Origin: an uncultured Prevotellaceae bacterium
Lineage (GTDB): Bacteria > Bacteroidota > Bacteroidia > Bacteroidales > Bacteroidaceae
DNA: 64,000 bases
Assembly (NCBI GenBank): GCA_902778535.1
Contig: CACYYG010000008.1
Coordinates: 62,001 to 126,000 of the forward strand
Direction of reading: 5' to 3'
The stretch's first letter is position 1, and each line of letters opens with the position of its first letter. Position numbers and translations under genes: made by a program. The notes below the pieces were generated by a model, which made no database searches, was not told where the DNA came from, and saw only the letters and a list, made by a program, of their open reading frames with translations. Below, in pieces: positions 7,731 to 30,332 of this stretch.

Positions 7731-7798
7731 AATGTTACATTGCAAAAAGCGTGAGATACAAATGGTGCTATGTTATATAAATAATGTTTATATCTTTG
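7731..7798 (+). promoter_or_regulatory. Operator-like element and promoter of the first uptake operon
   Basis: A 32-bp element at 7731-7762 (AATGTTACAT, then TGCAAAAAG and TGAGATACAAA) is repeated almost unchanged at 24092-24123 before the second operon. In both places it ends exactly 28 bp before the -7 box (TATCTTTG here, 7791-7798). Two TACA cores about 21 bp apart could be direct half-sites for a dimeric AraC-type activator. The regulator is inferred; the element and spacing are seen directly. Confidence 0.7.
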
Positions 7799-7804
7799 CA
7801 AATG

Positions 7805-7887
7805 TTTTTCAGGTTAGTTACAGATAGTTAGTAGTTCGTTTTAGCGGCATCGCTTGTTTTGAGCGCAAAAGGGCGATGCCGTTTTTA
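7805..7887 (+). ncRNA. Conserved leader RNA with terminator-like hairpin, copy 1
   Basis: From the predicted start to the hairpin (48 bp after the -7 box) the sequence is nearly identical to 24166-24247. GGCATCGC (7846-7853) pairs with GCGATGCC (7873-7880), followed by GTTTTTA. An inner stem TTTTG-AGCG-CAAAA corresponds to TGTTG-AGCG-CAACA in the other copy, a compensatory T:A to G:C change that supports a real RNA structure. It looks like an intrinsic terminator 130-175 nt before the susC start, so it may attenuate the operon or release a short RNA. Confidence 0.72.
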
Positions 7888-8062
7888 CTCAACAAAAGTC
7901 TGTGCTATGCCCGAAAAATTCTGAAAAACGATTTTAATTACAACACACAACGACTGAATTTTACGAGGCTAAATAAAACAAGGAACTAAAAAATCGATGT
8001 AAAGTTGACAAGAAAGAATGTATATAACTAATAAAAATTTTTATGAATCAAAATCGGAAAAG

Positions 8063-11000
8063 ATGAAACAGCTAACAAGTCTCTTGAAACGAGCTGTGCC
8101 TTTCTTGCTTCTAATGATGCTCCCGCTGGCTTCGCTGGCGCAGGGCACCATTGACGTATCTGGTACAGTTCTAGACGGTGCGGGTGAACCTCTCATCGGC
8201 GCCTCGGTTGTTTTGAAAGGCAATACTTCTCAGGGCGTGGTGACCGACTTCGACGGTAACTTCCGGCTGAAGGTGCCTTCTGAGCAGTCAGTGCTGGTGA
8301 TTTCCTATATTGGCACAACCCCGAAGGAAATCAAAGTCGGCAGTCAGCGCAATTTTAAGGTGACGCTGCAGGAAGACACCCAGTTGGAGGAAGTCGTGGT
8401 TGTGGGTTATGGCCAGCAGAAGAAAGCCTCTGTGGTGGGTGCCATTTCTCAGACTACCGGCGAAGTCCTTGAACGTGCCGCAGGTATTGGTAGCGTCAGC
8501 GCAGCTCTTACCGGTAACCTTCCGGGTGTTGCAACAATCGCTTCAACGGGTCAGCCTGGTGAAGAAGATCCGCGAATCTATATTCGTGGTGCAGCAGCAT
8601 GGAACCAGGATGCCCAGCCGCTTATCCTCGTTGATGGTGTCAAGCGTGAAATCAAGTCTGTTGACATTTCGTCCGTGGCTACCGTCTCCGTGCTGAAGGA
8701 CGCATCGGCCACCGCCGTTTACGGTGTGGAAGGTGCTAACGGTGTTATCCTGATTACCACAAAGCGTGGTGTGGAAGGTAAGGCAAGAATTGATGTCGGT
8801 TTCACCGCTACTTTGAAGGCTGTGTCAAAGCTTCCGCGCAAATACGACTCTTACGACGGCTATATGCTTCGCAACCAGGTGCTTGAGCATGAGTTGGCCT
8901 TGGGCGGTGATGCTTCTTGGGAATACTATCGTCCGCAGACGTTCATCAATAATTTCCGCAATCAGGACTATACTGTGAAGCCGAACTACAGTGCTTCTGG
9001 CAGCTACCTTGGTGACTACAGTCAGGCAGAGCGCTATCCTAACATTGACTGGCAGGACGAGATGTTCAGAAGTACCGCCCTGTCATATAACACCAACCTC
9101 AATTTCTCAGGTGGTACGAAGTTTGTGAAGTATTTCGTAGCCTTCGACTTCCAGAATGAGGGTGATATGACAAGGATATGGGACAACAACCTGGGCTTTG
9201 AAGGCGGTTATTCATACAATCGTTTGAATGTTCGTTCAAATCTTGACTTCCAGATTACGAAGACCACACAGTTCAAGGTCAATCTGGCTGGTTCCAATGC
9301 GCAGCAGAAGAATCCGCGTTATTATTATAGCAATAGCGGCGAGTGGTTCCAGCAGCAGAACTGGGCTGGTGCCTATCGTATGCCGCCAAACGTTTACCCC
9401 GTAAAGTTCTCAAATGGTGCGTGGGGATATTCCAGACTGGCTGCCTCAAATATGGCAAATTCTCCAATGAACATTGCAACCTCTGGTTATACGTTGGGTA
9501 CCATTACACGTGTATTTACAGACTTTGCACTTGAGCAGAATCTTGATTTCGTCACAAAGGGTCTTGTCGCACGTGGAACGATTTCGTGGGACAACCAATT
9601 TGAAGAGAGTACCGATCCCAATAGAGACGATGCACGTGGTATTACTGCTGCCGGTCACGTAAATAATACTGCCTATATACTCCCTGAAGATGGTCAGCTT
9701 CTTTTCGAGAATGATATTTTTCCAAAAACCGGCTTCGATTTCTATGAAAAGCGCGACTGGGCCACGCGGGCAGGTGCCGTCAACCGTACAAGTCGTGCAA
9801 CGGAAATGTCAGTCCAGCTGTTCTGGGGACGTCAGTTCGGCGACCATAACGTGACCGCTATGGGCAACTGGAAGCGCCGTATCAGTGCAAGTAATGCCGA
9901 ACTCGAGAATCGTCGTGAGGACTGGGTGTTCCGTACAACCTATGACTATATGAGCAAGTATTTCGCCGAGTTCAACGGCGCTTACAACGGCTCGCAGAAG
10001 TTCTCTCCCGACAACCGCTTCGCATTCTTCTGTTCGGGTGCCATAGGCTGGATGCTTTCAGAAGAGAAGTTCATGAAATGGCTGAAGGACAAGAAGATTA
10101 TTGACATGTTCAAGATTCGTGGCTCCTACGGTGAAATCGGTGACGACAGCGCAAACCCGACTTCTAAATATCCATACATGACAACCTGGGAAGTCAATGG
10201 TCCCTTCGCAATGGGTCTCGACCACTCCAACAGCCCCTTCACCGGCTACAAGGAGGCGGGCATTGCCAACCCCGATCTTCGCTGGGCAACTGTAAGGAAG
10301 CAGAACATCGGTTTCGACTATGCATTCCTCGGCGGTATGTTCGCAGGCAGCTTCGACTGGTTCCGCGACGACCGTTATGACATCTTTATATATGGTTCCG
10401 ACCGCTCAGTGCCTTCCTACTATGGCGCAGCCCAAACCCCTGACATCAACAAGGGTAAAATCAAGAACTCAGGTTTCGAGATTGAGGTTCGCTTTAACAA
10501 GGTCTTGAAGAATGGTATGCGTTTCTGGACAAATGCCAACTACACATTCGCCCATAACACCATCAAGTTGAAGGATGACCCCGCACTGATTCCAAGCTAC
10601 CGTAAGTCACAAGGCTATTCTCAGGGACAATACGTCTCTTATATTGATAATGGTTATATCGGCACCTACGATGAACTCTATAGTGCTCCGGCATTCCAGA
10701 GTAACGACAATCAGGTGCTCATCGGCGACCATTACATCGTTGACTTCAATGGCGACGGTGTCGTCGACGTGACAAACGACCAGGCTCCTTACGGCTACAC
10801 AGGAACCCCGGAGCACACTTACAATGCTACTATCGGTTGGGAGTGGAAAGGATGGAGCTGTTTTGCCCAGCTCTATGGCGTAACGGGTGTTACGCGTGAC
10901 GTCACGCTCACTTCTTTCCCAGATCAGCTGCTCACAGTGTATGACACCGGTACTTGGTGGAATCCTGTAAGTGGAACAGGCGAGGTCGTCGTGCCGCGCT

Positions 11001-11275
11001 TTAACACTCAGGCAGCCCCGGGCAACAACGGTACGCAGTTCCTCTTCGACGGTTCTTATTTCCGCCTGAAGAATGTGGAAGTCGCTTATACATGGACAAA
11101 GGGCTGGATCAAGAGGCTTGGCTTTACAAGTCTGAAGGTTTACCTGAACGGCAACAACCTCTTCCTGATCACAAAGATGCCTGACGACCGCGAGAGTAAC
11201 TACGGATGGAGCGGTAGCGGCGGCGCTTACCCAACGGTCAGACGTTATAACTTCGGATTTAAGCTTTACATTTAA
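8063..11275 (+). CDS. SusC-like TonB-dependent outer-membrane transporter (XusA-like)
   Basis: A 1070-residue protein; the start at 8063 gives a standard signal peptide (MKQLTSLLKRAVPFLLLMML, cleavage after SLA). An in-frame ATG at 8018 would add 15 residues before the hydrophobic core. Residues about 28-107 form a carboxypeptidase-D-like regulatory domain. The TonB-box/plug entry is EEVVVVGYGQQKKASVVGA near 113-131, and the plug contains YIRGAAAW and ANGVILITTKRG. The remainder is the 22-strand barrel. With the SusD partner immediately downstream it imports oligosaccharides. The cluster order matches the xylan utilisation system, hence XusA-like, but substrate is inferred. Confidence 0.9.
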   Translation: MKQLTSLLKRAVPFLLLMMLPLASLAQGTIDVSGTVLDGAGEPLIGASVVLKGNTSQGVVTDFDGNFRLKVPSEQSVLVISYIGTTPKEIKVGSQRNFKVTLQEDTQLEEVVVVGYGQQKKASVVGAISQTTGEVLERAAGIGSVSAALTGNLPGVATIASTGQPGEEDPRIYIRGAAAWNQDAQPLILVDGVKREIKSVDISSVATVSVLKDASATAVYGVEGANGVILITTKRGVEGKARIDVGFTATLKAVSKLPRKYDSYDGYMLRNQVLEHELALGGDASWEYYRPQTFINNFRNQDYTVKPNYSASGSYLGDYSQAERYPNIDWQDEMFRSTALSYNTNLNFSGGTKFVKYFVAFDFQNEGDMTRIWDNNLGFEGGYSYNRLNVRSNLDFQITKTTQFKVNLAGSNAQQKNPRYYYSNSGEWFQQQNWAGAYRMPPNVYPVKFSNGAWGYSRLAASNMANSPMNIATSGYTLGTITRVFTDFALEQNLDFVTKGLVARGTISWDNQFEESTDPNRDDARGITAAGHVNNTAYILPEDGQLLFENDIFPKTGFDFYEKRDWATRAGAVNRTSRATEMSVQLFWGRQFGDHNVTAMGNWKRRISASNAELENRREDWVFRTTYDYMSKYFAEFNGAYNGSQKFSPDNRFAFFCSGAIGWMLSEEKFMKWLKDKKIIDMFKIRGSYGEIGDDSANPTSKYPYMTTWEVNGPFAMGLDHSNSPFTGYKEAGIANPDLRWATVRKQNIGFDYAFLGGMFAGSFDWFRDDRYDIFIYGSDRSVPSYYGAAQTPDINKGKIKNSGFEIEVRFNKVLKNGMRFWTNANYTFAHNTIKLKDDPALIPSYRKSQGYSQGQYVSYIDNGYIGTYDELYSAPAFQSNDNQVLIGDHYIVDFNGDGVVDVTNDQAPYGYTGTPEHTYNATIGWEWKGWSCFAQLYGVTGVTRDVTLTSFPDQLLTVYDTGTWWNPVSGTGEVVVPRFNTQAAPGNNGTQFLFDGSYFRLKNVEVAYTWTKGWIKRLGFTSLKVYLNGNNLFLITKMPDDRESNYGWSGSGGAYPTVRRYNFGFKLYI

Positions 11276-11290
11276 TTGCGTATATATATT

Positions 11291-13411
11291 ATGAAATATT
11301 ATAATAATGTAAAAACCCTTCTGTGTGGTTCGATGCTTCTTTTGGCTGGCGGTGCTTCCCTGACATCTTGCACCGACTGGCTCGACAGGGATCCGGAGTC
11401 TATCGTGGCAGAGGATGAAGCATTCAAGAACTATCGCAATTTCCAGGGATATATTGAAGAAATCTACAGCCTGGTTCCAGACAAGGAGAAGGTCAACTAT
11501 TGTACTGCATGGAACTTTGGCGACGACGCTGTTCACAACACCGAAGGCTATGCACACATGGACCACCAGGTGGATCTTGGCAACTATCGCGACTGGTATA
11601 ACAACACCCAGTGCTGGCTGAATGGCGACAGACAGTCGCTCTGGAGAAGCGCATGGTATTGCATACGCAAGTGCAACATGGGCATTGAGAATATTAAGTC
11701 GCTCGTTGGAACAGATGAAGAGCGTGACTTGTTGCTCGGACAGATGTATTTCTTCCGCGCATGGTGGCATTTTGAGCTGATGTGCTACTTCGGTGGCCTT
11801 CCCTATATTGACCAGGCTTTTGAGGCTACCTCCATTCCTGAGCTTCCCCGCCTTTCATTCCAGGAATGTGCAAATCGTTGTGCAGAAGATTTTGAACGCG
11901 CCTACGATCTTCTTCCTATGGACTCGCAGGGTTGGGACGAAACTCTCGCCGGTATGCAGACTTCGGGAAAGAATGACCTGCGTATCAACAAGTTCATGGC
12001 ACTCTGCTATCTCGGCAAGTGCTATCTTTGGGCAGGCTCTCCGCTTATGAAAGAATTTGAGAAGACCAAGAATGGCGGCGTTGCCCAGCTCCTTGGCGCA
12101 AGTGCCAATGGCAAGACCTATGATTATGATGTTGAATACTGCAAGAAGGCTGCAGAGGCTTTGGGAAAGGCCCTTGACTTGGTAAACAGAGGACAGGTAA
12201 ACTACCATCTGGCACAGTACAAGTATTCTATCATGTACGACCAAGTGAGTGATGTAAATGCAGAGACTTGCTATTCAGACATCTTCTGGACTGAGAAACA
12301 GAGCTGGTTGACGCCAGGTTCAACAGAAGCCATCTTCCGTGGTGTCAATTCAGGTTTAAACACTGCCAACTGGAACTGTGCAAAGATTTTTGGTCCTAAG
12401 GTTCAAGGTCTTGTCGCTCATGACAAAATCATTCACCATCCCACTGCAAACCTCGTTGACCAGTACGGTATGGCCAACGGACAGCCCATCTATCTTGTAC
12501 AGAACGGACAGTATGTGCTGAACCCGGAATCCGGATGGGATCCTGAGCATCCGTTCAAAAACCGTGATCCCCGATTCTATCACGATTTCGTGTTCGACGG
12601 TTTCCACTATGTGCTCAGTACAGACGCCTTAAATGCTGACCAGAAAAAGCTTGAGTATTGCGACCTTTATACAGGCGGTGCCATGCGTGGCGTTGCCGAT
12701 GGAAGCAGCACGGGCTATTTCATTCAGAAGCTGGTGCCTCACCAGTGTAACGAAGGAGACAGATGGTATGACTGGGATTATAACTTCGAATGTTATCTCC
12801 CTTACATGCGACTGGCTGACATCTATCTGATGTATGCAGAGGCTATGGCAGCCATTGCCTGTGCAAATAATAATGTTAACGACTTCAAGAGTAATAAGAA
12901 TTATTGCACGTCACTGACTGCCGTTGACGCCATCAACGCACTCCGCGACCGCGTTAATTCTGACGACTATCCAATGGAACACATACCGGCTAACCTTCTC
13001 ACCACCACAAAGAGCTTCATGGACGAAGTGCGCCGTGAACGCACTGTGGAACTTTCCTTCGAGGGCTTCCGCTGGTGCGACCTTCAGCGTTGGCTTCTTC
13101 TGACAGAGGCTCCCTACACAGTGAAATATTCTCATGAGTTCGAGCGTCTGGAGTGGGGCAAGTATGACCCGAGTAAGACATTCGAGGAGAACAATACTGA
13201 TCCGAAGACAGGAAAACCGATAACAGATGCAAGTAAATTGGTTTATCCCTGGGATTGGTTCAAGACCCACGACCCCAAGGATGCCAAGGTTGGCAACTTC
13301 CACAAGGCAGAACTGATAACTCGCCGTTTGGAGTCAAAGCACTACTGGTTCCCGCTTCCTGACAAGGATATCTATCTTTACGAAGGATTTGCCCAGAATC
13401 CAGGATGGTAG
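11291..13411 (+). CDS. SusD/RagB-like surface glycan-binding lipoprotein (XusB-like)
   Basis: A 706-residue lipoprotein. The ATG at 11291 gives MKYYNNVKTLLCGSMLLLAG and a lipobox ending in LTSC, with the lipid Cys followed by TDWLDRDPES, the usual SusD start. TPR-type helices dominate, with the common signature of helix residues RAWWHFELMCYFGGLPYID near 155-173. The C-terminal region contains LMYAEAMAAIACANN and the closing NPGW. It should cap the SusC barrel encoded 15 bp upstream and deliver glycan to it. It is longer than a typical SusD (500-600), so loops may extend the binding surface. Confidence 0.9.
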   Translation: MKYYNNVKTLLCGSMLLLAGGASLTSCTDWLDRDPESIVAEDEAFKNYRNFQGYIEEIYSLVPDKEKVNYCTAWNFGDDAVHNTEGYAHMDHQVDLGNYRDWYNNTQCWLNGDRQSLWRSAWYCIRKCNMGIENIKSLVGTDEERDLLLGQMYFFRAWWHFELMCYFGGLPYIDQAFEATSIPELPRLSFQECANRCAEDFERAYDLLPMDSQGWDETLAGMQTSGKNDLRINKFMALCYLGKCYLWAGSPLMKEFEKTKNGGVAQLLGASANGKTYDYDVEYCKKAAEALGKALDLVNRGQVNYHLAQYKYSIMYDQVSDVNAETCYSDIFWTEKQSWLTPGSTEAIFRGVNSGLNTANWNCAKIFGPKVQGLVAHDKIIHHPTANLVDQYGMANGQPIYLVQNGQYVLNPESGWDPEHPFKNRDPRFYHDFVFDGFHYVLSTDALNADQKKLEYCDLYTGGAMRGVADGSSTGYFIQKLVPHQCNEGDRWYDWDYNFECYLPYMRLADIYLMYAEAMAAIACANNNVNDFKSNKNYCTSLTAVDAINALRDRVNSDDYPMEHIPANLLTTTKSFMDEVRRERTVELSFEGFRWCDLQRWLLLTEAPYTVKYSHEFERLEWGKYDPSKTFEENNTDPKTGKPITDASKLVYPWDWFKTHDPKDAKVGNFHKAELITRRLESKHYWFPLPDKDIYLYEGFAQNPGW

Positions 13412-13412
13412 A

Positions 13413-13445
13413 ACATTGAAGATTGAACATTGAACAATGAACATT
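13413..13445 (+). repeat. Heptad direct repeats before susC2
   Basis: ATTGAAG, ATTGAAC, ATTGAAC and AATGAAC follow one another with a 7-bp period directly upstream of the next start codon. Equivalent tracts occur at 16426, 18281, 27577, 42630 and 47573. They leave the ribosome-binding region A/T-rich and unstructured. Confidence 0.6.
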
Positions 13446-16424
13446 ATGAAAAATATAAAGACAAACATATTTCTCTTTGCCATGCTTACAGCATCGCCAC
13501 TGGTGGCCAATGCGCAGACTGCTGACGACGCTGATACTACCGTGGTAAAAAAGAAAGTCCACGTTGCATTCCGCGACAAGGATGCCGACCAGCTTCTCGG
13601 TGGTGTCTCCTATGTTGACATGGAAGAGCTGTCGAAGAAGGATTACACGATGAGTAGCCTTGAAGACATGTATGCTCTTGTTGGCGGATGGAATGGCAAC
13701 AACCTTTGGGGCATGGATAACGAGCGTCTTGACAACAACGACAACGGCAACCTGCCTCTTGTTATCATCGATGGCGTGAAGCGTCCGTCCAACAATGTGC
13801 TCCCCTCAGAAATTGAGCAGATTACCTTCCTCAAGGGTGCACAGGCAGTAGTGCTCTATGGTCCTAAAGGCGCCAAGGGGGCTATCGTCATTACCACCAA
13901 GCGTGGCAAGGTTGATGGGCTGCAGATTGAAGCCAATGCCAACACTGGCTGGCATTTCGCTAAGGAATTCCCTGAGTATCTGGGGTCTGCAGAGTATATG
14001 ACGCTCTATAATGAAGCCCGTACCAACGACGGAGACGACCTGAGATACTCTCAGATGGATATCTACAATCACGCTTTAGGCCTTAATCCTTACCGTTATC
14101 CCAACGTCAACTACTATTCAGACGAGTATGTTCGCAAAGCATACAACCGTTCTGAAGGCACATTGGAGATACAAGGTGGCGGTACTCGCGCTCACTTCTA
14201 CACGAACATCAACTACTATCGCCTGGAAGACCTCATCAACTTCGGTCCAGCAAAGGATAACTACACCGACCGTTTCAGTGTACGTGGTAATGTGGATCTC
14301 GTAATCAACAAACTCGTCAAGGGTTGGGCTAACGTAAGCGCAACATTCTACAATGCCAACAGCAACAAGGGAGACTTCTGGAGCGATGCAGCCTCTATGC
14401 GTCCCAACTTCCCTGAGAACGCTGCCCCGCTGATTGACATCAATATGGTTGACCCGAACGCTTCCAAGGCATTGGCTATCCTCGGTAAGTCCCTCAATCT
14501 GCTTGACGGTAGATATTTCCCCGGTGGTACGAAAAACACCCAGACCAATGCTATTGCCGACTGCTACTTCGGCGGTAAGACAAAAGGCGTCAGCCGTCAG
14601 TTCCAGTTTGATGCAGGCATTGACTATGACATGAACAAGTTTGTGAAGGGTTTGACATTCAGGACTTTGTTCTCTATCGACTATGCTGCAAAGTACGACC
14701 TCTCATATAACAACAAGTATGCTGTGTTCATCCCCACGTGGAGTAATTATAACTCAGGTGATGCCATTGTGGCCCTTACTCAGCAGAACGATGAAATCGT
14801 GACAGGCCACATGTCAATGGGAAACACTGCCTATCGCCAGACCATCAGCTGGAATGGTCATTTCGACTACGACCGCACCTTTGCCGACAAGCATCATGTT
14901 ACCGGTATTCTGCTTGCAAATATGTACACCACGACATCCAGTGGTCAGTACCATCGCTATGCCAATGCCAACATCGGTCTTGAGGCCGGTTATGACTACA
15001 TGGGACGTTATTTCGCTGATGTAGCATTAGCTGGTGTACATTCTGCCCGTCTTCCTGAAGGCAATCGTGCAGCCATTTCGCCTTCTTTCACACTTGGCTG
15101 GAACATTGCCAAGGAGCCTTTCATGGAAGGAAGCTTCGTTGACGACCTGTTGATCAGCGCATCCTACAGTAATCTGAATGAGGATATTGATATCTATGAC
15201 GCTAATAACAACAGTAAGCTTTTCTACCTTTACGATGCTTCGTGGGCAACAACCGGCGGCAGCTTCACATGGAATGAAGGAGTGAGCACAGACATCACTT
15301 ATTCCGAAATGGGTGCCAACCCTGCCCTCGATTTCATTCATCGCAAGGAATGGTCGGTCAGCCTGCGTGGCTCGTTCTTTGATAAGCTGATAACCACTAA
15401 CCTCACGTTCTTCAATACGGACATGGATGGTTATCTTATCAAAAGCCCGACCACTTTCCCCTCACACCTACAGAATGGTCTTTCCTCAGGAAAATTCTCA
15501 CCGGCCATCAATAATAACATCCAGAACCGTAAGGGTGTTGACTTCAGCGTAACAGCCCAGAAACAGTTCGGTAAGGTTCATGCTCAGCTGGGCGTTGTAG
15601 GTACCTATTTCACGACCAAGTGGAAGAAGTTTGACGAAATCATAGACGAAGCAGCTCCCAACAAATACACCGAGGGCCAAGCCCTTGATGCCCTTTGGGG
15701 ATACAAGTGCTTAGGTTTCTACACAGCAGACGACTTTGACATCACCACTACTGAGGATGGTAAAACCAAGTATGCCCTAAAGGCTGGCTTACCCAAATCT
15801 TCACTTTCTGGTAATACCAACCTGAGGCCTGGTGACCTGAAGTACGAGGATGTGAATGGTGACGGCACCATCAACAACCAGGATTTGGTTGTCCTTGGCA
15901 AGTCGGGTAACATTGTTGCTTTGGACAGCAAGTACAATCCGGACGGCACCGGTTTAGGCAGCATTGGTACGCCTTGGGCTGTTGGCATGAACCTTACGCT
16001 GAAATACAAGAACTGGACACTCTTCATGTTGGGTAACGGACAGTTCGGTGCCAAGGCGATGATGAACGGTTCTTACTACTTTATGAGCGGTGAAAACAAG
16101 TATTCTGTCAACGTCCGTGGCCGTTGGACTCCTGAGACAGCAGCCACTGCTACTCATCCACGTCTGACGACACAGACTACTTCTAACGGCGAGGCATCTA
16201 CCTTCTGGCTCTACAGCACAGACCGTATCAACCTTCGCAAGGTACAGCTAACCTATGACTTCCCGAAGGAAATGTTTGACGGAAAGGTTGTGAAGGCTCT
16301 TTCAATTTATTTGAATGGAAACGATCTTCTTACCATCTCAAAGCATCGCAAGATGATGGAGACAAGCGTTGGCTATGCACCACAGACCCGTTTCTATAAC
16401 CTTGGTGTGAAGGTAACCCTCTAA
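13446..16424 (+). CDS. SusC-like transporter without N-terminal regulatory domain (XusC-like)
   Basis: A 992-residue TonB-dependent receptor. ATG at 13446 (MKNIKTNIFLFAMLTASPLV) gives a signal peptide cleaved after NAQ or nearby; an ATG 9 bp upstream is in frame. It lacks the carboxypeptidase-D-like domain of the other two SusC proteins here and goes directly to a plug (PLVIIDGVKRPSNNVLPSEI, then KGAIVITTKRGK near residues 145-156) and the barrel. It is paired with the SusD-like gene 37 bp downstream. Two unlike SusC/SusD pairs in one operon are the hallmark of xylan utilisation loci in Prevotella and Bacteroides. Confidence 0.88.
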   Translation: MKNIKTNIFLFAMLTASPLVANAQTADDADTTVVKKKVHVAFRDKDADQLLGGVSYVDMEELSKKDYTMSSLEDMYALVGGWNGNNLWGMDNERLDNNDNGNLPLVIIDGVKRPSNNVLPSEIEQITFLKGAQAVVLYGPKGAKGAIVITTKRGKVDGLQIEANANTGWHFAKEFPEYLGSAEYMTLYNEARTNDGDDLRYSQMDIYNHALGLNPYRYPNVNYYSDEYVRKAYNRSEGTLEIQGGGTRAHFYTNINYYRLEDLINFGPAKDNYTDRFSVRGNVDLVINKLVKGWANVSATFYNANSNKGDFWSDAASMRPNFPENAAPLIDINMVDPNASKALAILGKSLNLLDGRYFPGGTKNTQTNAIADCYFGGKTKGVSRQFQFDAGIDYDMNKFVKGLTFRTLFSIDYAAKYDLSYNNKYAVFIPTWSNYNSGDAIVALTQQNDEIVTGHMSMGNTAYRQTISWNGHFDYDRTFADKHHVTGILLANMYTTTSSGQYHRYANANIGLEAGYDYMGRYFADVALAGVHSARLPEGNRAAISPSFTLGWNIAKEPFMEGSFVDDLLISASYSNLNEDIDIYDANNNSKLFYLYDASWATTGGSFTWNEGVSTDITYSEMGANPALDFIHRKEWSVSLRGSFFDKLITTNLTFFNTDMDGYLIKSPTTFPSHLQNGLSSGKFSPAINNNIQNRKGVDFSVTAQKQFGKVHAQLGVVGTYFTTKWKKFDEIIDEAAPNKYTEGQALDALWGYKCLGFYTADDFDITTTEDGKTKYALKAGLPKSSLSGNTNLRPGDLKYEDVNGDGTINNQDLVVLGKSGNIVALDSKYNPDGTGLGSIGTPWAVGMNLTLKYKNWTLFMLGNGQFGAKAMMNGSYYFMSGENKYSVNVRGRWTPETAATATHPRLTTQTTSNGEASTFWLYSTDRINLRKVQLTYDFPKEMFDGKVVKALSIYLNGNDLLTISKHRKMMETSVGYAPQTRFYNLGVKVTL

Positions 16425-16425
16425 T

Positions 16426-16461
16426 TGAAGATTGACAATTGATAATTGAAAATTGAAGAAA
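16426..16461 (+). repeat. Heptad direct repeats before susD2
   Basis: Five consecutive 7-mers (ATTGAAG, ATTGACA, ATTGATA, ATTGAAA, ATTGAAG) fill the gap up to the ATG at 16462. This is the clearest case of the heptad tract in the window. Confidence 0.65.
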
Positions 16462-18279
16462 ATGAAGACAAGAAATATTTTATTGTATGTCATCGGTCTA
16501 CTCGCTATCACTTCATGCGGTGATATGTTCGAGCCGTTAGACGAGAACACTCGACAGGAGGATGCCATGTACGAGGAGTCTGCCTATGCACATGGCCTGT
16601 TGATGTACGCATACGATCGTCTGCCCTATATTACGACCACGACAACCGACATTGCTACAGATGATGCTGTGACCAACAATCTTAACAGCCCCTATCTGCT
16701 CATGGCAACAGGCTCATGGCAAGCAGACAACAACCCGATGTCCGTATGGGACAATTGTAAGGATGGTATCCAGTATGTCAACAAGTTCTTTACAATAGTA
16801 GATAAGGTGAAATGGGCTCCCAGTGCAGTCTCCAAGCAGCAGATGTTCATTGACCGTCTGAAAGGTGAGGCTTACGGCCTTCGTGCGCTCTTCTATTATT
16901 ATCTGCTTCAGGCCCATTCAGGCTATGCCGACGATGGCATCCTCTATGGTGTGCCTTTGCTGACTACCCCTGAAGACGGCAGCTCCGACTTCAACCAGCC
17001 TCGTGCCACTTTTGCTGACTGCGTGAAGCAATGTTTTGCTGACTGCGACAGTGCAATGGCATATCTTCCTTTCGATTATGTTGATATTACCCATGAGGCC
17101 GATATTCCTGCAAAGTATGTGGCTCTTGGTGCAAACACCTCTAATTACAACCTCGTGTTTGGCCTAAAGGCCAGCAATCTCATGTCGGGTAAGTGTGCCG
17201 AGGCTATCAAGGCTCAGATTGCCCTTCTTGCTGCCAGTCCTGCCTTCCGCGAGCAGAGCGGTGTGACTTCTGCCGAGGCTGCTACGTATTGCGCTAACGT
17301 TCTCAAACGTATTGGCGGAATGGAAGGCTTTGATCCTACAGGTAACATCTGGTACAAGAATAAGTTGAAGCTGGAACCCAATGCATCGGAAATGCCGGAA
17401 ATTCTCTGGCGTGAAGACCGTGTGAAGAACGCATCTCAGGAAAGCGAAAACTTCCCGCCGTCGCTCTTTGGCAGCGGTCGTGTCAACCCGTCACAGAATC
17501 TCGTCGATGCTTTCCCCATGCGTAGCGGTCTTCCTATCACAGATCCTAATTCCGGTTACGACCCGCAGAATCCCTACGTCAACCGTGACCCGCGTTTAGC
17601 AGACGACATCCTCTATAATGGCGTTACGTTAAGAAGAAATGAAATCATCACGGGCAAATATCCGAATGCCAATGGCGAGACGAATGACAACTATAAGCAG
17701 CTTCCTACTTCTACTCGCACTGGCTATTACCTGCTGAAGCTTCTCCGTGACGATGTCAGTCCTCTGTCAAGTTCTCTCATTGAGCAGTATCATATCTATC
17801 CGCGCATCCGTTACACAGAAATCTTCCTGGCTTATGCAGAAGCTGCCAACGATGCATGGGGACCCAAGGGCGATCAGGCTGGTGCAGGCTTTACTGCCTA
17901 CGACGTCATCAAGGCCATCCGTGAGCGTGCAGGACTTGCAACTAATGAGATTGGAATGCCGCTTCCACAAGGTGATGTCTATCTTGAAGAGTGTGCAGCC
18001 GACCAGGCCAAGATGACCAATCTGATTCGTAACGAGCGTCGTATTGAGCTCTGCTTCGAGAACAAGCGCTTCTGGGATATGCGTCGTTGGATGTTGCCGC
18101 TTAATGAACCTGTCAAGGGCGTTGAGATTGACCGCAACGATGATACAAAAGAACTCACCTACAACTACGTAGAAGTTGAGAAGCGAGAGTATGACAACTC
18201 TTATCAGTTGTACGGCCCCATTCCGAAGGATGAAGTGCTCAAATGGAGCAACCTCAAGCAGAACAAGGGATGGAAATAA
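16462..18279 (+). CDS. SusD/RagB-like lipoprotein (XusD-like)
   Basis: A 605-residue lipoprotein: MKTRNILLYVIGLLAITSC gives the lipobox with the lipid Cys followed by GDMFEPLDENTRQ. TPR-like helices follow; KGEAYGLRALFYYYLLQAHSG near residues 134-154 is the family helix. YAEAANDAWGPKGD, then RNERRIELCFENKRFWDMRRW near 522-542, are standard SusD C-terminal signatures. It partners the SusC protein just upstream. An in-frame TTG 9 bp upstream is less likely as the start because the ATG leaves the signal peptide intact. Confidence 0.88.
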   Translation: MKTRNILLYVIGLLAITSCGDMFEPLDENTRQEDAMYEESAYAHGLLMYAYDRLPYITTTTTDIATDDAVTNNLNSPYLLMATGSWQADNNPMSVWDNCKDGIQYVNKFFTIVDKVKWAPSAVSKQQMFIDRLKGEAYGLRALFYYYLLQAHSGYADDGILYGVPLLTTPEDGSSDFNQPRATFADCVKQCFADCDSAMAYLPFDYVDITHEADIPAKYVALGANTSNYNLVFGLKASNLMSGKCAEAIKAQIALLAASPAFREQSGVTSAEAATYCANVLKRIGGMEGFDPTGNIWYKNKLKLEPNASEMPEILWREDRVKNASQESENFPPSLFGSGRVNPSQNLVDAFPMRSGLPITDPNSGYDPQNPYVNRDPRLADDILYNGVTLRRNEIITGKYPNANGETNDNYKQLPTSTRTGYYLLKLLRDDVSPLSSSLIEQYHIYPRIRYTEIFLAYAEAANDAWGPKGDQAGAGFTAYDVIKAIRERAGLATNEIGMPLPQGDVYLEECAADQAKMTNLIRNERRIELCFENKRFWDMRRWMLPLNEPVKGVEIDRNDDTKELTYNYVEVEKREYDNSYQLYGPIPKDEVLKWSNLKQNKGWK

Positions 18280-18280
18280 G

Positions 18281-18322
18281 TGAAAGTTGATAATTGAAGG
18301 TTGAAAATTGAATATTACAATT
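18281..18322 (+). repeat. Heptad direct repeats before the DUF1735 gene
   Basis: GTTGATA, ATTGAAG, GTTGAAA and ATTGAAT run head to tail before the ATG at 18323. Confidence 0.55.
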
Positions 18323-19453
18323 ATGAAACTCAAGAAATACATATACGGCGTAGCCTTGGGAGCACTTTCTCTCTCATTTGCTTCTTGCTATAATGCAGAC
18401 AAAGACTTCCCGGACTTTGAAGGAGGCACAACGGCCTACTTCGCCTATCAGTATCCGGTACGTACACTCGTACTTGGTAACGACATCTACGACAACACGA
18501 TTGACAACGCTCACAAGTGCCAGATTTGGTCGACGATGGGCGGAGCCTATAACGGGCGCAACGCTTACGTGGACATTGTCGTTGACGAAACACTCTGCAA
18601 CAACCTCTATTTCACCGATGAAGGCGGTAACCCGGCAGAGCCTGTGAAGCCCATGCCGACGTCATACTACAACCTTTCATCCAACCAGATTGCTTACAAT
18701 GGCGATTCTCGCGGTTATGTAGAGGTGCAGTTTACGGATGCTTTCTTCAACGACCCGAAGGCAATCGACAACACCTATGTCATTCCCCTGCTGATGACCA
18801 ACGTCAAGGGCATTGACCACATCCTCACTGGCAAGCCGCGTGAAGGTCTCACTCCCTCGCGCACGAACACGGAAGATTGGGAAATTCTGGCAAAGGACTA
18901 TGTGCTCTACTGTGTGAAGTACATGAATCCCTGGCAGGGAAAGTATATTCGCCGCGGCGTTGACAATATAACGGAAAAAGGAGCTACCTCAACGGTGGTC
19001 CGCAAGGATTTCTCGCTCGTCAACACCGACCTTGAGCACTACAAGGAGAATCCTGTCAACCAGAACGATGAAATCTGTGGCATCAAGACCAAGAACATGA
19101 CGCAGGCCATCTTCCCCGTCTCATTCAAACGCAGTGGTGGCGCAGCTTCCATCCCCTGCAACCTCATCCTTACGTTCAACGGCAATCAGTGCACCATCTC
19201 CACCGACGATGAGGGCGTGACAGCCACAGGCTCAGGCGAATACATCGTCAAGGGAACTGAGAAGCCCGAATACAAGGACTATCAGTGGGGAAGCATGAAC
19301 GGACAGCCCGTCCAGCGCGACATTCTCCGCTTGGCCTATGAGGTTAACTTCCAAAATGAAGACATTCAGGTTTCCACAACCGATACGCTTGTTGTTCAGA
19401 CCCGTGAGTCAAACAAGAAAGTGTTCTTCTCACCAAAATATGTAAATCAATAA
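18323..19453 (+). CDS. DUF1735/DUF5627-type surface lipoprotein (XusE position)
   Basis: A 376-residue lipoprotein. MKLKKYIYGVALGALSLSF leads to the lipobox FASC. The N-terminal half has the beta-sandwich style of the BT_3987/DUF1735 domain (DIVVDETLCNNLYF and SYYNLSSNQIAYNGDSRGYV). The C-terminal half resembles DUF5627 (AIFPVSFKRSGG, then CNLILTFNGNQCTIS). Proteins of this kind are surface glycan-binding proteins encoded after susCD. Its place between susD2 and the GH10-like gene equals that of xusE in xylan loci. Ligand specificity cannot be read from sequence. Confidence 0.75.
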   Translation: MKLKKYIYGVALGALSLSFASCYNADKDFPDFEGGTTAYFAYQYPVRTLVLGNDIYDNTIDNAHKCQIWSTMGGAYNGRNAYVDIVVDETLCNNLYFTDEGGNPAEPVKPMPTSYYNLSSNQIAYNGDSRGYVEVQFTDAFFNDPKAIDNTYVIPLLMTNVKGIDHILTGKPREGLTPSRTNTEDWEILAKDYVLYCVKYMNPWQGKYIRRGVDNITEKGATSTVVRKDFSLVNTDLEHYKENPVNQNDEICGIKTKNMTQAIFPVSFKRSGGAASIPCNLILTFNGNQCTISTDDEGVTATGSGEYIVKGTEKPEYKDYQWGSMNGQPVQRDILRLAYEVNFQNEDIQVSTTDTLVVQTRESNKKVFFSPKYVNQ

Positions 19454-19468
19454 AAGGAGGCTAAGAAT

Positions 19469-21133
19469 ATGAACAGAATTTTTAGAAACGCCCTCTTTGT
19501 GTTGGCAGCAGGTGCATTGGCAGCTTCCTGTGCCGACTATAACGAGACAGACGGTTTCGCTGCTCAACCCGATCCGACCTTTGCCGAGCCGTACAAGGAC
19601 CTGGCTCCTGTCAAGTCATACATCGACAGAAACCAGTATCCCAACATGACGCTTGGAGCAATGCTGAAGGTGTCGGAATTCAACAAGCAGGAGCTGGCAC
19701 ATGCTGCAGCTGTCACCAACTTCGACAATGTCGCATTCGGTACCACCCTGATGTCGGGCACCATTGTCAATGCTAAAGGTGTGATGAACTTCCTCGACAT
19801 GAGCGATCTGCTTACCCATGTAGAGGAAATAGGCTATGAGGTGTACGGCAGTCCCATCGTTGCCAATGCCAACCAGGCTGAAGAATGGCTGGCCACACTC
19901 ACAGCTCCTATTGAGATTGCGGTTGACTACGTAGAAGGAAAGACAATTGACTTCAGTACCATGACCAAGTTTGATGGCACTGTTGAGAAAGGTGACAAAA
20001 GTAAAGCTTCTATCGTCAGTTATGAAGGTCAGAACGTGCTTCAAGTAGGCACCAGAGCTAATGTTCGCATCGTTGAAGATTTCGACGTTGATCCTAAGGC
20101 TACATATACCACTACATTCTGGGCAAGAGCTCAGACTGGCAAGGAGTCTGTTTCTTTTACAGTAAACTTCTCCGGCAATCAGATTGCAGGACCTGCTTCT
20201 GAAGGAAAGTGGACAGTCAAGCCAGACAAGTGGTACAAGATTGTTGTGGAGGGTCAAAGCGCACCTGACGCCACTGAAGGCTTCTTCAGGATAGATAATG
20301 GTCCAAACGGTGTTATCTATATTCAGAAGGTACAGGTTGGCTACTATCCTGACAACCACCGCGATCAGACCCAGCAGGAACTGACTGATACCATCAAGTA
20401 TGCACTCAACACCTGGTGCGACGGTCTGATGAAGATCAACGCCGGCCGTATCCAGATGTTCGATCTCATTGACGAACCTATCGAAACCGGTGCTGAGCTG
20501 GAGAACGGCATGTATGACCTCAAGCACTCTACCGAAAAGATATTCTGGCAAGACATCCTTGGCAGTGAAAACTATGCTCCGGCTGTTGCAAAGGCAGCAC
20601 GCGATGCCTACCAGAGGTACGAGGGCGATCCTGCTGAGCTGAAGTTCTTCATCAGTGAGTCTGGTCTTGACGACGCCAAGAAAATGCAGAGCCTTAAGTA
20701 CTGGATTGGCATCTGGGATGCAAATGGTGCAAAGATTGACGGTATCAATGCAAAGCTGAATCTCAGCTACAGTGAGGATGCAGCAACGCAGGAAGCTAAT
20801 AAGGCCACACTCGACAATCTTCTTACCAGTCTTGCTGCAACGGGTAAACTGATTCGTCTCTCTAATTTCGACATCAAGTATCTGGATGTCGACGGCGTGT
20901 CAGTTTCGGCAGATAAGATATCGGAAGCCCAGCGTCAGAAGCTGGCCGATTATTACGGCTACGTCATCAAGAGCTACATGAGCAAGATTCCTCATGAGAT
21001 GCAGGCTGGCATTTGCAAGGGCAATCTGGCTGATACAACTGATCCTGTGGGTCTTTGGTCTGTTAACAAGAGCAAGGACTGGGTGCGCACTGCTACTTAC
21101 AAGGCATTCTGCGACGCACTTAGCGGTAAGTAA
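19469..21133 (+). CDS. GH10-like lipoprotein, probably catalytically dead
   Basis: A 554-residue lipoprotein (MNRIFRNALFVLAAGALAAS, lipid Cys21). It has the split GH10 plan of Prevotella Xyn10C: an N-terminal barrel part (about 45-150), an inserted CBM4-like module (about 155-295), then the barrel remainder. The acid/base loop is kept as FDLIDEP with Glu336. The nucleophile loop normally reading ITELD is LSNFD, with Asn466 in place of Glu. The substrate motif ENxMKW and the GHTLxWH loop are also lost (FGTTLMS near 91-97; YGSPIVANAN near 126-135). It is therefore more likely a surface xylan-binding protein than an enzyme. A strong AAAGGAGG Shine-Dalgarno precedes its ATG, unusual for this genome. 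Confidence 0.82.
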   Translation: MNRIFRNALFVLAAGALAASCADYNETDGFAAQPDPTFAEPYKDLAPVKSYIDRNQYPNMTLGAMLKVSEFNKQELAHAAAVTNFDNVAFGTTLMSGTIVNAKGVMNFLDMSDLLTHVEEIGYEVYGSPIVANANQAEEWLATLTAPIEIAVDYVEGKTIDFSTMTKFDGTVEKGDKSKASIVSYEGQNVLQVGTRANVRIVEDFDVDPKATYTTTFWARAQTGKESVSFTVNFSGNQIAGPASEGKWTVKPDKWYKIVVEGQSAPDATEGFFRIDNGPNGVIYIQKVQVGYYPDNHRDQTQQELTDTIKYALNTWCDGLMKINAGRIQMFDLIDEPIETGAELENGMYDLKHSTEKIFWQDILGSENYAPAVAKAARDAYQRYEGDPAELKFFISESGLDDAKKMQSLKYWIGIWDANGAKIDGINAKLNLSYSEDAATQEANKATLDNLLTSLAATGKLIRLSNFDIKYLDVDGVSVSADKISEAQRQKLADYYGYVIKSYMSKIPHEMQAGICKGNLADTTDPVGLWSVNKSKDWVRTATYKAFCDALSGK

Positions 21134-21140
21134 GCAACAC

Positions 21141-21175
21141 AAGGCATGGGGGCTCGCATGCAGTCCCCATCCCTT
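21141..21175 (+). terminator. Hairpin after the GH10-like gene
   Basis: AAGG-c-ATGGGG (21141-21151) pairs with CCCCAT-c-CCTT (21165-21175). No T run follows, so it may be an RNA-processing or mRNA-stabilising hairpin more than a full terminator. It separates the first six genes from the next one. Confidence 0.45.
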
Positions 21176-21210
21176 GCTAAACTTGTAAAGAATCCCCCTA
21201 AAGGAGGAAA

Positions 21211-21246
21211 ATGACAGAGAAAAACAAAATGATAGGATATTCCTAA
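21211..21246 (+). CDS. Possible 11-codon leader peptide
   Basis: ATG at 21211 opens MTEKNKMIGYS and stops at 21246. It has an ideal AAAGGAGG at 21200-21207, rare in this window. It lies 54 bp before the start of the CBM-repeat protein. It could be a regulatory leader peptide or chance. Confidence 0.3.
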   Translation: MTEKNKMIGYS

Positions 21247-21300
21247 AGAATCAACATTTTTTTTTTATTCATCTTTTATTATTAACTAAACTTTTCTATT

Positions 21301-23472
21301 ATGAAAAAATTATTTACTCTTTTTGCTTTCCTGGCAATAGTTATGGGAGCAAAAGCTGACTGGGTAGAAGATTACAAGATCGACTACTCCAAAAACACTG
21401 GGTTCCCCTTCTACGTGATGGGTTACGTTCCTGAGTGGGTTGACGGCGTCATGACCGACTATGGTGCAATGTTCAAGTATGTTGAGGTGAAGGATGATGC
21501 TGAGGAGACCAGCGACGTCATCGTGAAGACACAAGGCGGTGTCGAGTACTACAAAATTGAATTGGCTGAGCCCGGATGGCACCAGTATTTCATTGCCGAT
21601 GGCATTCCCACCGAGCTTGACGGTTCTTACACTGCTAAGGCATTGGTTAAAGCTTCAGAGGCTTGCACCATCAACATCAACATGGGTTGGGGTTGGAATG
21701 AAGGCCAGCAGAAAGGCACATCCGTAAATATTCCCGCAGAATGGACAGAGATTGAATGGGAGTACAGTGGCATTGGTGGTACTTCTTGCAACCTCGTTGC
21801 ACAGCCTGGTACTGTTACTGCTACCATCGAGTGGAAGTGGGTTACCGTTTCTCACAACGCAAAAGAGTCTCGTCCGGTTGTATGGCAGGAGTGGCTTACC
21901 AATGATGGCCAGTCTATCATCCCCGATGTCGCTCACGAAAACAAGTGGATGGGTGACGCCGAAACTCCTTGGGCTGATCCTGAAACAAAATGGAACGATC
22001 AGGAAAAGAACTATCTCATTTGTGCATGGGGTAAGGAGCGTGAGGTCAACATGAATGAAGACGGTGGCTGGGATCCCTTCCCCGCTACGATTGAACAGGA
22101 AGCCGACGGTAATCACTATTTCGTCGTTCATGGTAAGCCCGCAACCACAGAGGGTGATGCTTCAGCATGGGACAACCAGTTCTGGATTCAGAGCCCGAAG
22201 GAGTGGAAGTCTGGTGATCAGCTTAAGATTCATTTCCGCTACAAGGCTTCAAAGGCTGTTACTGTAGCTACTCAGTGCCACAAGCAGAATCCGTCAGACT
22301 ACCTCATCTGGCATGCTATTGGTGACATCGCCTTCACTGAAGAGTGGCAGGACTTTGACGGCACTATGTCAATTGCTGATGATATGGCAGGTACTTGGTC
22401 AATCGCTTTCCAGCTGAACCAGAATGATAAGGATGCTATTGATTTCTACTTTGACGACCTCTCATGGCAGAGCATGAAGCTTGACGAAGGTTACTTCGTG
22501 GCAGGCAGCAACCCCAATACGGGTCTTGAGTATGACTTCGACAACGCTGTTGAGTTCGTTTATGACGAGGAAGCAGAAGTGAAGACTGCTACTATCGGCG
22601 AAAAGGACGCATACGTCTCTCAGATAATGATTTCTACCGTACGCGGCAACGATGCTGCATTCAAGGGCAATACTTTGAAGCCTTCTGGCGCAATCACTAA
22701 CGATCCTGACAACTGGCTCGACTACGCTCCCTCAAGTCTTGCTAAGCTGAACCTCCCGGGTGAGGGTATCTGGAGAATCTACCTTGACGAGGACTATAAG
22801 GCAATGGCATTCGAGATGCTCGAAGGAACTGAAATTGCTCCTAAGGACATCAAGGCCAACCCGACAGTTGTTACCATCAATGCTCTCGAGAGAGACTATC
22901 TCACAGCTGATAGCAATGGAAATGCACGAGAAGCAGAAATTGGCACAGGTGAGCCTTGGGACAACCAGTTCTGGATTGTTGCTAACCGCACACTGAGCAC
23001 TGGTGAGGTAACTGTTGTTCAGTTCTCATATAGAGCAAATACTCCTGCCAAAGCCTCTACACAGGATCACGCCGATCCGGGCAGTTACCTGCACTGGGCT
23101 GCTATCGGTGATGTGAATTTCGCTGAAGAGTGGCAGGACTTCGAAACCACCTTCACTGTTCCCTCTGAGGCAAACGGCATGAAGTCAATCGCATTCAACC
23201 TGTCTGAAATCAAGGAGGCCAACACCTATGAGTTGAAGGACTTCATCTGGAAGCTTGAAGACAACACAGAGACTCTGATCAATGAGACTGGTGGCACCAA
23301 TTTCTACGTGAAGATACTTGGTGGCAATCCCGAGCCTGTTGAGTCTGGCATCACCAGCGTTGTGAACAACAAGAAGGCTACTACCGTTACATACAACCTT
23401 GCCGGCCAGCGCGTATCCAAGAGCTACAAGGGCATCGTCGTCAAGAACGGAAGAAAGCTAGTTACGAAGTAA
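21301..23472 (+). CDS. Secreted protein with three carbohydrate-binding-type modules
   Basis: A 723-residue exported protein; MKKLFTLFAFLAIVMGAKA is a signal peptide without lipobox. Three related beta-sandwich modules of CBM4/9-like style follow (about 25-190, 240-395 and 525-680). The last two share WDNQFWI, a Gly-Asp-Ile/Val strand (HAIGDIAFTEEWQDF versus AAIGDVNFAEEWQDF) and a closing Ser-Ile-Ala-Phe strand. The C-terminus ends in YNLAGQRVSKSYKGIVVKNG plus a Lys-rich end, the short tail typical of secreted Prevotella proteins. No catalytic domain is visible. It probably binds polysaccharide at the surface. A weak hairpin lies upstream and a strong terminator downstream. Confidence 0.7.
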   Translation: MKKLFTLFAFLAIVMGAKADWVEDYKIDYSKNTGFPFYVMGYVPEWVDGVMTDYGAMFKYVEVKDDAEETSDVIVKTQGGVEYYKIELAEPGWHQYFIADGIPTELDGSYTAKALVKASEACTININMGWGWNEGQQKGTSVNIPAEWTEIEWEYSGIGGTSCNLVAQPGTVTATIEWKWVTVSHNAKESRPVVWQEWLTNDGQSIIPDVAHENKWMGDAETPWADPETKWNDQEKNYLICAWGKEREVNMNEDGGWDPFPATIEQEADGNHYFVVHGKPATTEGDASAWDNQFWIQSPKEWKSGDQLKIHFRYKASKAVTVATQCHKQNPSDYLIWHAIGDIAFTEEWQDFDGTMSIADDMAGTWSIAFQLNQNDKDAIDFYFDDLSWQSMKLDEGYFVAGSNPNTGLEYDFDNAVEFVYDEEAEVKTATIGEKDAYVSQIMISTVRGNDAAFKGNTLKPSGAITNDPDNWLDYAPSSLAKLNLPGEGIWRIYLDEDYKAMAFEMLEGTEIAPKDIKANPTVVTINALERDYLTADSNGNAREAEIGTGEPWDNQFWIVANRTLSTGEVTVVQFSYRANTPAKASTQDHADPGSYLHWAAIGDVNFAEEWQDFETTFTVPSEANGMKSIAFNLSEIKEANTYELKDFIWKLEDNTETLINETGGTNFYVKILGGNPEPVESGITSVVNNKKATTVTYNLAGQRVSKSYKGIVVKNGRKLVTK

Positions 23473-23488
23473 GTATAAAGCCGAAGCT

Positions 23489-23512: not shown

Positions 23513-23534
23513 CGCCAGAGCTTTAGTTCTAACA

Positions 23535-23581
23535 ACAGCAGCAGCTGCATCTCATTGAGGTGTGGCTGCTGTCTTTTTTTT
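23535..23581 (+). terminator. Rho-independent terminator of the first uptake operon
   Basis: ACAGCAGC (23535-23542) pairs with GCTGCTGT (23565-23572), followed by CTTTTTTTT. This is the clearest stop signal for the operon that starts near 7805. Confidence 0.8.
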
Positions 23582-23589
23582 ATGATTCA

Positions 23590-23775
23590 TTCAACTTTCT
23601 CAAGTGGAGTAGTAAGAAGTAGTAAAAGGAAGTTATGGGAAGTTATGGGTCAATAGTTGCTTCACTGATGGCTACGCAAAAACTCCTTCATAGACCATAA
23701 CAAATGACCTATACTTCCAAGGCCGAAGGCCGATAAATTCTTCTAACTACCTCTAACTACCGAAGTTAAGCGTAT
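23590..23775 (+). repeat. Dispersed repeat R1, copy a
   Basis: About 185 bp from TCAACTTTCTCAAGTGGAG to CGAAGTTAAGCG. Reverse-complement copies lie at 59242-59412 and 59413-59595, and an internally deleted direct copy at 62728-62860. Inside are GGCCGAAGGCC and a doubled CTAACTAC. Similarity between copies is very high (only a few differences over 180 bp by eye). No open frame is conserved as a gene. Confidence 0.8.
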
Positions 23776-23852
23776 ACAACCGACAGTTGAGTGATTATCC
23801 GCAATCACATCCCCAGAATGTAAGAAGTCAACGTTCATCATCGTGAATGTGT

Positions 23853-23957
23853 CAGAACCCTCGGTAACATCGCGGGTTACTGACAGTAACCACGTGGGTT
23901 ACTAACAGTAACCACGCGAGTTACTGACAGTAACCCACATGGTTACTAAATTGTCAC
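23853..23957. repeat. 22-bp-period palindrome array 1
   Basis: Three units of GGTTACT-NNN-AGTAACC (first base A in the third unit) start at 23875, 23897 and 23919, with a half unit at 23941 and a degenerate unit before. Each palindrome is 7+3+7 bp and units are separated by exactly 5 bp (ACGTG, ACGCG, CACAT). The centre triplets differ (GAC, AAC, GAC). It lies about 200 bp upstream of the second uptake promoter. Spacers are far too short for CRISPR. Confidence 0.75.
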
Positions 23958-24091
23958 AGGTGTTGGTTCTTGTCTGAGAACTCCCGTTTCTTCAATAAAC
24001 AGAATTTATCAAGTTGTTCACCACGTTTTCAAATCATAAAAAATGTGTTATAATTGTTTCTATTTGTTGTGAAAATGTGTTTTTTGACATA

Positions 24092-24159
24092 AATGTTACA
24101 TAGCAAAAAGGTTGAGATACAAACGACAATGATACGTGTTAATAATATATGTAATTTTG
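24092..24159 (+). promoter_or_regulatory. Operator-like element and promoter of the second uptake operon
   Basis: The 32-bp element AATGTTACAT, AGCAAAAAG, TTGAGATACAAA at 24092-24123 repeats that at 7731-7762. It again ends 28 bp before the -7 box, here TAATTTTG at 24152-24159. Identical spacing argues for one activator acting on both operons. Confidence 0.7.
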
Positions 24160-24165
24160 CAACAG

Positions 24166-24247
24166 TTTTTCAGGTTAGTTAGAGATAGTTAGTAGTTCGT
24201 TTTGGCGGCATCGCTCATGTTGAGCGCAACAGGCGATGCCGCTTTTT
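24166..24247 (+). ncRNA. Conserved leader RNA with terminator-like hairpin, copy 2
   Basis: The 48 bp between the -7 box and the stem match copy 1 apart from about four bases (shared TTTTTCAGGTTAGTTA and GATAGTTAGTAGTTCG). GGCATCGC (24207-24214) pairs with GCGATGCC (24233-24240), with inner TGTTG-AGCG-CAACA, then GCTTTTT. The susC start follows about 92 nt later. Conserved sequence, loop and a compensatory pair change mark a functional RNA. Confidence 0.72.
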
Positions 24248-29553: not shown

Positions 29554-29571
29554 TATTTAATTGTATTCAAC

Positions 29572-30303: not shown

Positions 30304-30332
30304 TATTTCCTTGTTGGTATAATAATTAATAG

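Follow-up and report, generated by a model that had tools for sequence, protein, structure and literature searches.

A predicted terminator-tailed small RNA with a conserved UUAG-rich head precedes two glycan-uptake operons in an uncultured Prevotellaceae bacterium

We investigated a 64,000-nucleotide stretch of DNA from an uncultured Prevotellaceae bacterium (assembly GCA_902778535.1, contig CACYYG010000008.1, positions 62,001 to 126,000; hereafter the window), in which two uptake operons that begin with susC-like genes are each preceded by a copy of one leader element. Both copies follow the same plan, on the forward strand, of an operator, a promoter, a 39-nt unpaired UUAG-rich 5' part of the predicted RNA (the head), a terminator-type hairpin, and finally susC, with no further promoter box in between. 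We consider it reasonably probable that the element produces a small RNA driven by a glycan regulator, and that susC is made by read-through of the terminator. Judged from sequence comparison, the unit appears to be a real and well-conserved RNA of a known kind, namely the terminator-tailed small RNAs of glycan loci. Its association with hybrid two-component regulators is unusual, and a duplicated copy joins two operons.

The two copies form the only strong pair in a search of the source genome (3.9 Mb, 55 contigs) against itself, aligning with 82% identity over 157 bp (query positions 6-162, E 1.2e-37), with the next match at only E 0.0037. Direct reading of the sequence bore out the positions and spacings that an earlier note on this DNA had given for the operator, the 28-bp gap and the promoter box. 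The operators lie at 7731-7762 (copy 1) and 24092-24123 (copy 2), and the -7 promoter boxes TATCTTTG and TAATTTTG, whose consensus we take to be TAnnTTTG, follow 28 bp later at 7791-7798 and 24152-24159. Allowing up to three mismatches, the operator pattern occurs twice in the source genome, at these two copies, and not at all in the reversed control; in the window it occurs twice, and in 100 shuffles not once. The 48 bp that the same note had placed between box and hairpin are exact in both copies when counted to the GCATCGC of the stem, but the stem has its outermost pair 4 bp nearer to the box (at 7843 and 24204), leaving 44 bp between the box and the whole hairpin.

Both copies are predicted to fold into one hairpin behind an unpaired head, which we place at 7804-7842 and 24165-24203 from the predicted fold and from column comparison. 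The hairpins with their T runs follow at 7843-7886 (-24.8 kcal/mol, z -4.65) and 24204-24247 (-27.3 kcal/mol, z -6.09), and the folding model makes them credible intrinsic terminators. A generic terminator scan missed both, probably since it is written for one stem without interruptions. The inner stem reads TTTTG/CAAAA in copy 1 and TGTTG/CAACA in copy 2, a single compensatory change, and the relative in genome G097, which we found through DNA similarity to the whole element, shows a third pair type (U-G) at this position. The compensatory change itself is real, but three sequences are too few to carry a claim of covariation, which is weak at this level (168 of 500 shuffles reach it); the seven-locus alignment described below supports the claim.

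The unpaired 39-nt head is the best conserved part of the unit in its window form. Comparing copies 1 and 2 with G097, identical columns number 37 of 39 in the head, 32 of 39 in the hairpin, 25 of 35 in the operator, 9 of 13 in the promoter box region, 23 of 38 in the stretch before the operator, 11 of 27 in the spacer and 15 of 65 in the downstream leader. A constitutive promoter-proximal terminator combined with ordinary AraC-type activation, in which the leader only fixes the read-through ratio, would explain a strong hairpin near the start most simply, and the predicted fold of one hairpin with an unpaired head agrees with it. It gives no reason, however, for a head that outdoes operator and hairpin in conservation, nor for the 55 identical nucleotides at all eight loci of a related group (see below), and we regard it as quite improbable.

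A covariance model built from copies 1, 2 and G097 (R1) recovered the two sense-strand copies and one antisense match of copy 1 in the source genome, and over 398 genomes of the genus it gave a number of weak matches, many of which share the plan of the unit. Taken alone, the head core TTAGTTAGTAGTT is not enriched in the source genome (51 matches with at most two mismatches, versus 127 for the reversed control), and a looser pattern matched in 11 of 60 genus genomes, with some control matches also.

We identified more distant relatives by scanning 84,980 species genomes with a head pattern, which yielded 17 places, one in Flavobacterium and 16 in Prevotella or other Prevotellaceae (two of them in one assembly, and three with titles that name rumen or omasum). 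The pattern was picked on the head, so that head conservation at these places holds by construction; the same is not true of promoter, hairpin and regulator. A TAnnTTTG box stands 15-34 nt upstream of the head at 15 of the 17 places, and 12 of these 15 pass a hairpin and T-run rule. At 14 of the 17, a divergent hybrid two-component system (HTCS) gene starts 94-164 nt upstream (two are cut by the locus end), and all seven HTCS scanned with Pfam contain propeller, kinase, receiver and AraC domains. The G097 place has a headless regulator instead of a full HTCS, and neither promoter box nor HTCS was seen at the Flavobacterium place or at L148. Judged by these comparisons, the RNA belongs to a Prevotellaceae family whose best-defined members adjoin genes for glycan-locus regulators of the hybrid two-component type.

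Seven of the pattern loci, without the window copies, were aligned (A5), and a second covariance model (R2) was built from them. In the A5 hairpin 94.8% of cells are paired, compared to 40-58% in slid versions; three pairs are altered on both sides, which 14 of 500 shuffles reach, and the covariation score is reached by one shuffle in 500, with further pair types no higher than in shuffles. In the source genome, R2 gave just two matches at E <=0.1, the window copies themselves (E 0.011 and 0.016). Among the 398 genus genomes it gave 36 matches below E 0.001, where about 0.4 would be expected if the E-values hold, which are rough for the short-calibrated models R1 and R2; the top six are R2's own loci or a near copy. 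A family-wide draw gave a match at E <=0.1 in 47 of 399 genomes, many of them weak, and as about 40 chance matches are expected at this threshold in either draw, the weak matches count little. Further homologues with covariation, whose absence would have refuted the earlier reading, are thus found by the head pattern, A5 and R2. These relatives also bear on whether the head might be no RNA element but DNA to which a repressor binds downstream of the promoter, as its direct-repeat character (GGTTAG...GTTAGTAGTT) would allow. Promoter box and head are separated by anything between 15 and about 90 nt, with the head mostly close before the hairpin, and the hairpin covaries in relatives, so at least the hairpin is selected as RNA; we consider a DNA operator very improbable.

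Several other arrangements were seen among these relatives. Six loci (L133, L134, L136, L140, L144 and L145) have the same head ahead of a GH98-type gene with a terminator about 100 nt on, and a second promoter box after this terminator, 15-39 nt before the predicted start. In L038, L044 and L047, a UUAG-rich stretch and a hairpin with the shared loop GTATGAGAATATCGG lie upstream of, and on the same strand as, an HTCS-like gene, possibly forming a second class that faces the regulator itself. Some R2 matches, partly in other genera, lie near gene 3' ends (L249, L256, L258, L270 and L272, at about 1501-1580 of each locus) and combine a UUAG-rich stretch with a terminator that has a GUGA-like loop; they are perhaps small RNAs of 3' untranslated regions, and were kept out of the argument. 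We rejected the idea that the UUAG head is a general part of Prevotella terminators: among 34 terminators picked motif-blind in the window and 64 loci, only four show UUAG heptamers within 45 nt ahead of the stem, each of them in a locus that had been fetched because of the motif. Two scans of viral contigs gave zero and two stretches, both without the promoter arrangement and apparently due to chance.

That the RNA is more than an attenuator is indicated by an esterase/GH5 group of loci (L242 and kin), in which a 55-nt head is identical in eight of eight loci. The DNA flanking it on either side is far less similar, and the esterase beside the head is 66-90% identical at the protein level among six genomes compared. 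In genomes G333, G149 and G162, a plus-strand arm of GH5, susC and susD lies behind the RNA. In contrast, G358 and G167 (loci L245 and L247) retain the RNA with an identical head while this arm is absent at this place, and the next gene behind the RNA is convergent with it and encodes either a MaoC-domain protein or a glycosyltransferase; in G037 the contig ends there. At the G358 and G167 loci no neighbouring operon is left for the RNA to attenuate, so that there at least it is an RNA gene and not an attenuator only. A free small RNA is therefore favoured over an attenuator alone, because the RNA persists in a related group without a co-directional neighbour gene.

We compared this with the arrangement at 34 members that do have a co-directional gene (36 loci entered, of which two have no such gene in reach; orthologues counted separately; L245 and L247 not among the 36). 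A box between hairpin and start codon is absent in 20 of the 34, including both window copies, neither of which has a second TAnnTTTG box ahead of susC, and present in 14; in eight members the gap from hairpin to start is only 27-44 nt. Since the terminator is credible and no second box stands behind it, transcription of the window susC would have to pass through the hairpin, and the predicted RNA measures about 85 nt. From its genomic contexts, the unit thus seems to have two roles, that of a gene standing on its own and that of a leader to an operon, the window copies being leaders. The earlier proposal of an attenuator, or of an RNA of roughly 80 nt before susC, agrees with the terminator, the missing second box and the expected length, but was too narrow, as it missed the head and the stand-alone cases.

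A pure cis attenuator would make the head the landing site of an antitermination factor (e.g. of NusG type, or another protein that binds RNA or transcribed DNA) which decides on read-through into susC, with the short RNA as waste. The lack of a second box in the window copies and in most of the 34 members fits this, as do the short gaps in eight of them and the occurrence of similar heads before hairpins of unrelated sequence. Nevertheless, G358 and G167 keep the unit with an identical head and no adjoining co-directional gene, 14 members carry their own box after the hairpin, and the antitermination factor is hypothetical; we think this explanation rather unlikely.

The regulator that would act on the two promoters is encoded divergently from copy 1 (6491-7666, minus strand). 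This 391-aa protein has Pfam Response_reg, HTH_18 and HTH_AraC matches, and we found no sensor or kinase domain in it with Pfam, making it a 'headless' hybrid two-component regulator. It shares 52% identity with residues 1073-1326 of P0001, a 1329-aa HTCS encoded beside a relative of the leader. It appears to be a stable headless form and not a fresh wreck, because G097 carries a 419-aa homologue (53% identical) at the same place. One activator for both operons, as proposed in the earlier note, is likely, because the operator has no further copy in the genome and an AraC-type regulator, related to the P0001 C-terminus, diverges from copy 1; this protein is the presumed activator and would bind both operators.

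We therefore favour the following scheme for the small RNA with read-through. The two elements would be copies of one cassette, in which an activator site and a Bacteroidales-type promoter give rise to an RNA of about 85 nt composed of the conserved unpaired UUAG-rich head and the terminator hairpin. Upon a glycan signal, both promoters would be activated together by the divergent REC-AraC regulator, either by itself or as the output of a kinase. RNA polymerase would halt at the hairpin in some rounds, freeing the small RNA, and in the remaining rounds would read through into the susC operon, as no second box is seen behind this terminator. The free RNA would act in trans, like other small RNAs of Bacteroidales glycan loci, and copy 2 would place a second uptake operon under control shared with a xylan-type operon. 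Action in trans as a regulatory RNA is most likely, because conservation of the head is strong and, in one group, the RNA has been kept where the genes behind it were lost. A wider proposal is tentative, and we hold it to be doubtful: in a group of Prevotellaceae, every glycan sensor may drive a small RNA, either alongside its operon or in place of it, and these RNAs would have the UUAG-rich head in common while each has a terminator stem of its own. The head would be an RRM-free broadcast signal through which one active locus sets others in a substrate-preference network, and the RNA would be selected independently of the operon.

Several observations weigh against the small RNA with read-through. 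The stand-alone evidence comes from another branch of the family, in which the head has just the short blocks UUAGGUUAG and UUAGUAGUU in common with the window copies, and the 14 members with a box after the hairpin count here as well. Three promoter-bearing places (L137, L143 and L146) fail the hairpin and T-run rule, so hairpin quality is uneven. With R1, G097 is the only strong relative outside the source genome among the 398 genus genomes, and a match in G299 (E 8e-5) has no visible promoter box, as judged from its sequence alone. The UUAG head is not general to HTCS loci, since only two of 46 upstream regions from eight genomes reach a head score of 15/20, one of them (L182) apparently a relative and the other (L218) a simple repeat; 11 of 57 matches had been dropped from this survey as short, broken or the window's own, and the scores cover one orientation of the unit, opposite to that at L038, where it precedes an HTCS. 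The RNA start, the 3' end and read-through are what we infer.

Pairing predictions also speak against it, as they yielded no target. Pairing of the head with its own translation start was rejected as a general mechanism: duplex energies compared with 300 dinucleotide shuffles per start region reached p <=0.05 in only two of 17 rows, many of which are orthologues (L141, p 0.003; copy 1 with the 8043 start, p 0.047). For pairing in trans, 8 of 30 head-core sites lay in antisense start position (30 of the 51 matches considered), as did 8 of 30 sites of the reversed control (30 of the 127 considered). A comparison of 254 start regions gave one match versus a permutation mean of 1.18, and susC start regions set against others gave p 0.59 (5 versus 236), with too few susC recognised to tell the two apart.

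Among known systems, the nearest in working are FopS and GibS, small RNAs of Bacteroides thetaiotaomicron that are tied to glycan-locus control, according to two reports (PMC11697453, PMC7366714). FopS is described as having sigma-ABfr promoters, 12-15 copies per genome and a seed sequence in common with GibS (called R1, not to be confused with our model R1), and as associating with the RRM (RNA recognition motif) protein RbpB (PMC11697453). The window RNA resembles it in having, in the predicted fold, an unpaired 5' part and a Rho-independent terminator. In contrast to the 12-15 FopS copies, we found two in the source genome (R1 on the sense strand, and R2), and in contrast to the RbpB partner, no RRM_1 protein was found there (PF00076, zero matches at E 0.001; among the controls, Bacteroides ihuae was positive), and a Musashi-like reading of the UAG clusters was dropped along with the RRM partner. 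By this analogy, which rests on the description of FopS, the RNA would stand closest to the FopS/GibS class, yet we do not assign it there, because neither the RRM partner nor the paralogue number is matched. Rfam gave no match near the RNA at gathering or relaxed threshold, in a copy of Rfam in which the presence of a FopS model is unverified; one weak, unrelated match fell in a relative's locus.

DonS-type RNAs of Bacteroides are described as short RNAs near susC and antisense to it (PMC7366714). The window RNA is likewise short and near susC, but lies upstream on the same strand. El Mouali et al. 2024 reportedly found SrcF of Segatella copri to be controlled by fructans. SrcF is a Prevotellaceae small RNA that affects nutrient-uptake genes including glycan loci, as outlined in a review (PMC11814227). 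By description, it shares with the window RNA its bacterial family and its link to glycan loci, and one of the RNA groups identified here may be SrcF or its relative. Attenuators of leader-peptide, riboswitch or TRAP type also place a promoter-proximal terminator ahead of an operon, but the window RNA has a single predicted hairpin and no Rfam match, and a leader peptide found no support, as the head of copy 1 contains no ATG, GTG, TTG or CTG and that of copy 2 one TTG at the stem. As in HTCS-regulated glycan loci, an HTCS-type regulator lies beside the operon, although in the window it is only the REC-AraC part. We found no report of this element in the open literature searched.

How Prevotella ranks glycans and how its uptake loci talk to one another is, in our judgement, an open question. 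A small RNA made at a sensor-controlled promoter, if true, would link glycan loci directly, and the whole-leader copy points to a second uptake operon having been placed under a xylan-type regulator. Models R1 and R2, together with the head pattern, define a concrete RNA family that can be searched for in RNA-seq data from rumen and gut Prevotella.

The genes behind the two leaders are all on the forward strand. Operon 1 begins with a susC-like gene (TIGR04056, Pfam) at 8018-11275, with possible starts at 8018, 8043 and 8063, and continues through 11276-23472, within presumed limits, with the Pfam-assigned genes susD, susC-like, susD, a BT_3987_N/DUF5627 protein, GH10 and a CBM4_9 protein, a gene order which we take to be of the xylan-uptake (xus) type. 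A terminator-like hairpin of 16 pairs, found by the terminator scan at 23538-23572, closes operon 1, and therefore operon 2 probably depends on its own promoter at copy 2. Operon 2 begins with a susC-like gene (TIGR04056) at 24339-27575 and extends over 27613-36762, again within presumed limits, with susD, a 243-aa protein that has no Pfam match, two DUF6057 proteins and two PD40 proteins.

We additionally noted three features of the surrounding DNA. Downstream of operon 1 and ahead of copy 2, at 23864-23949, lie three imperfect palindromes GGTTACTRACAGTAACC spaced 22 bp, which account for six strand matches with at most two mismatches versus a chance mean of 0.02. The 243-aa protein, the two DUF6057 proteins and the two PD40 propeller proteins behind susCD (29572-36762) are unusual company for an uptake locus. 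Just past operon 2, at 37447-40627, a phage-type integrase gene adjoins a cluster of five tRNA genes.

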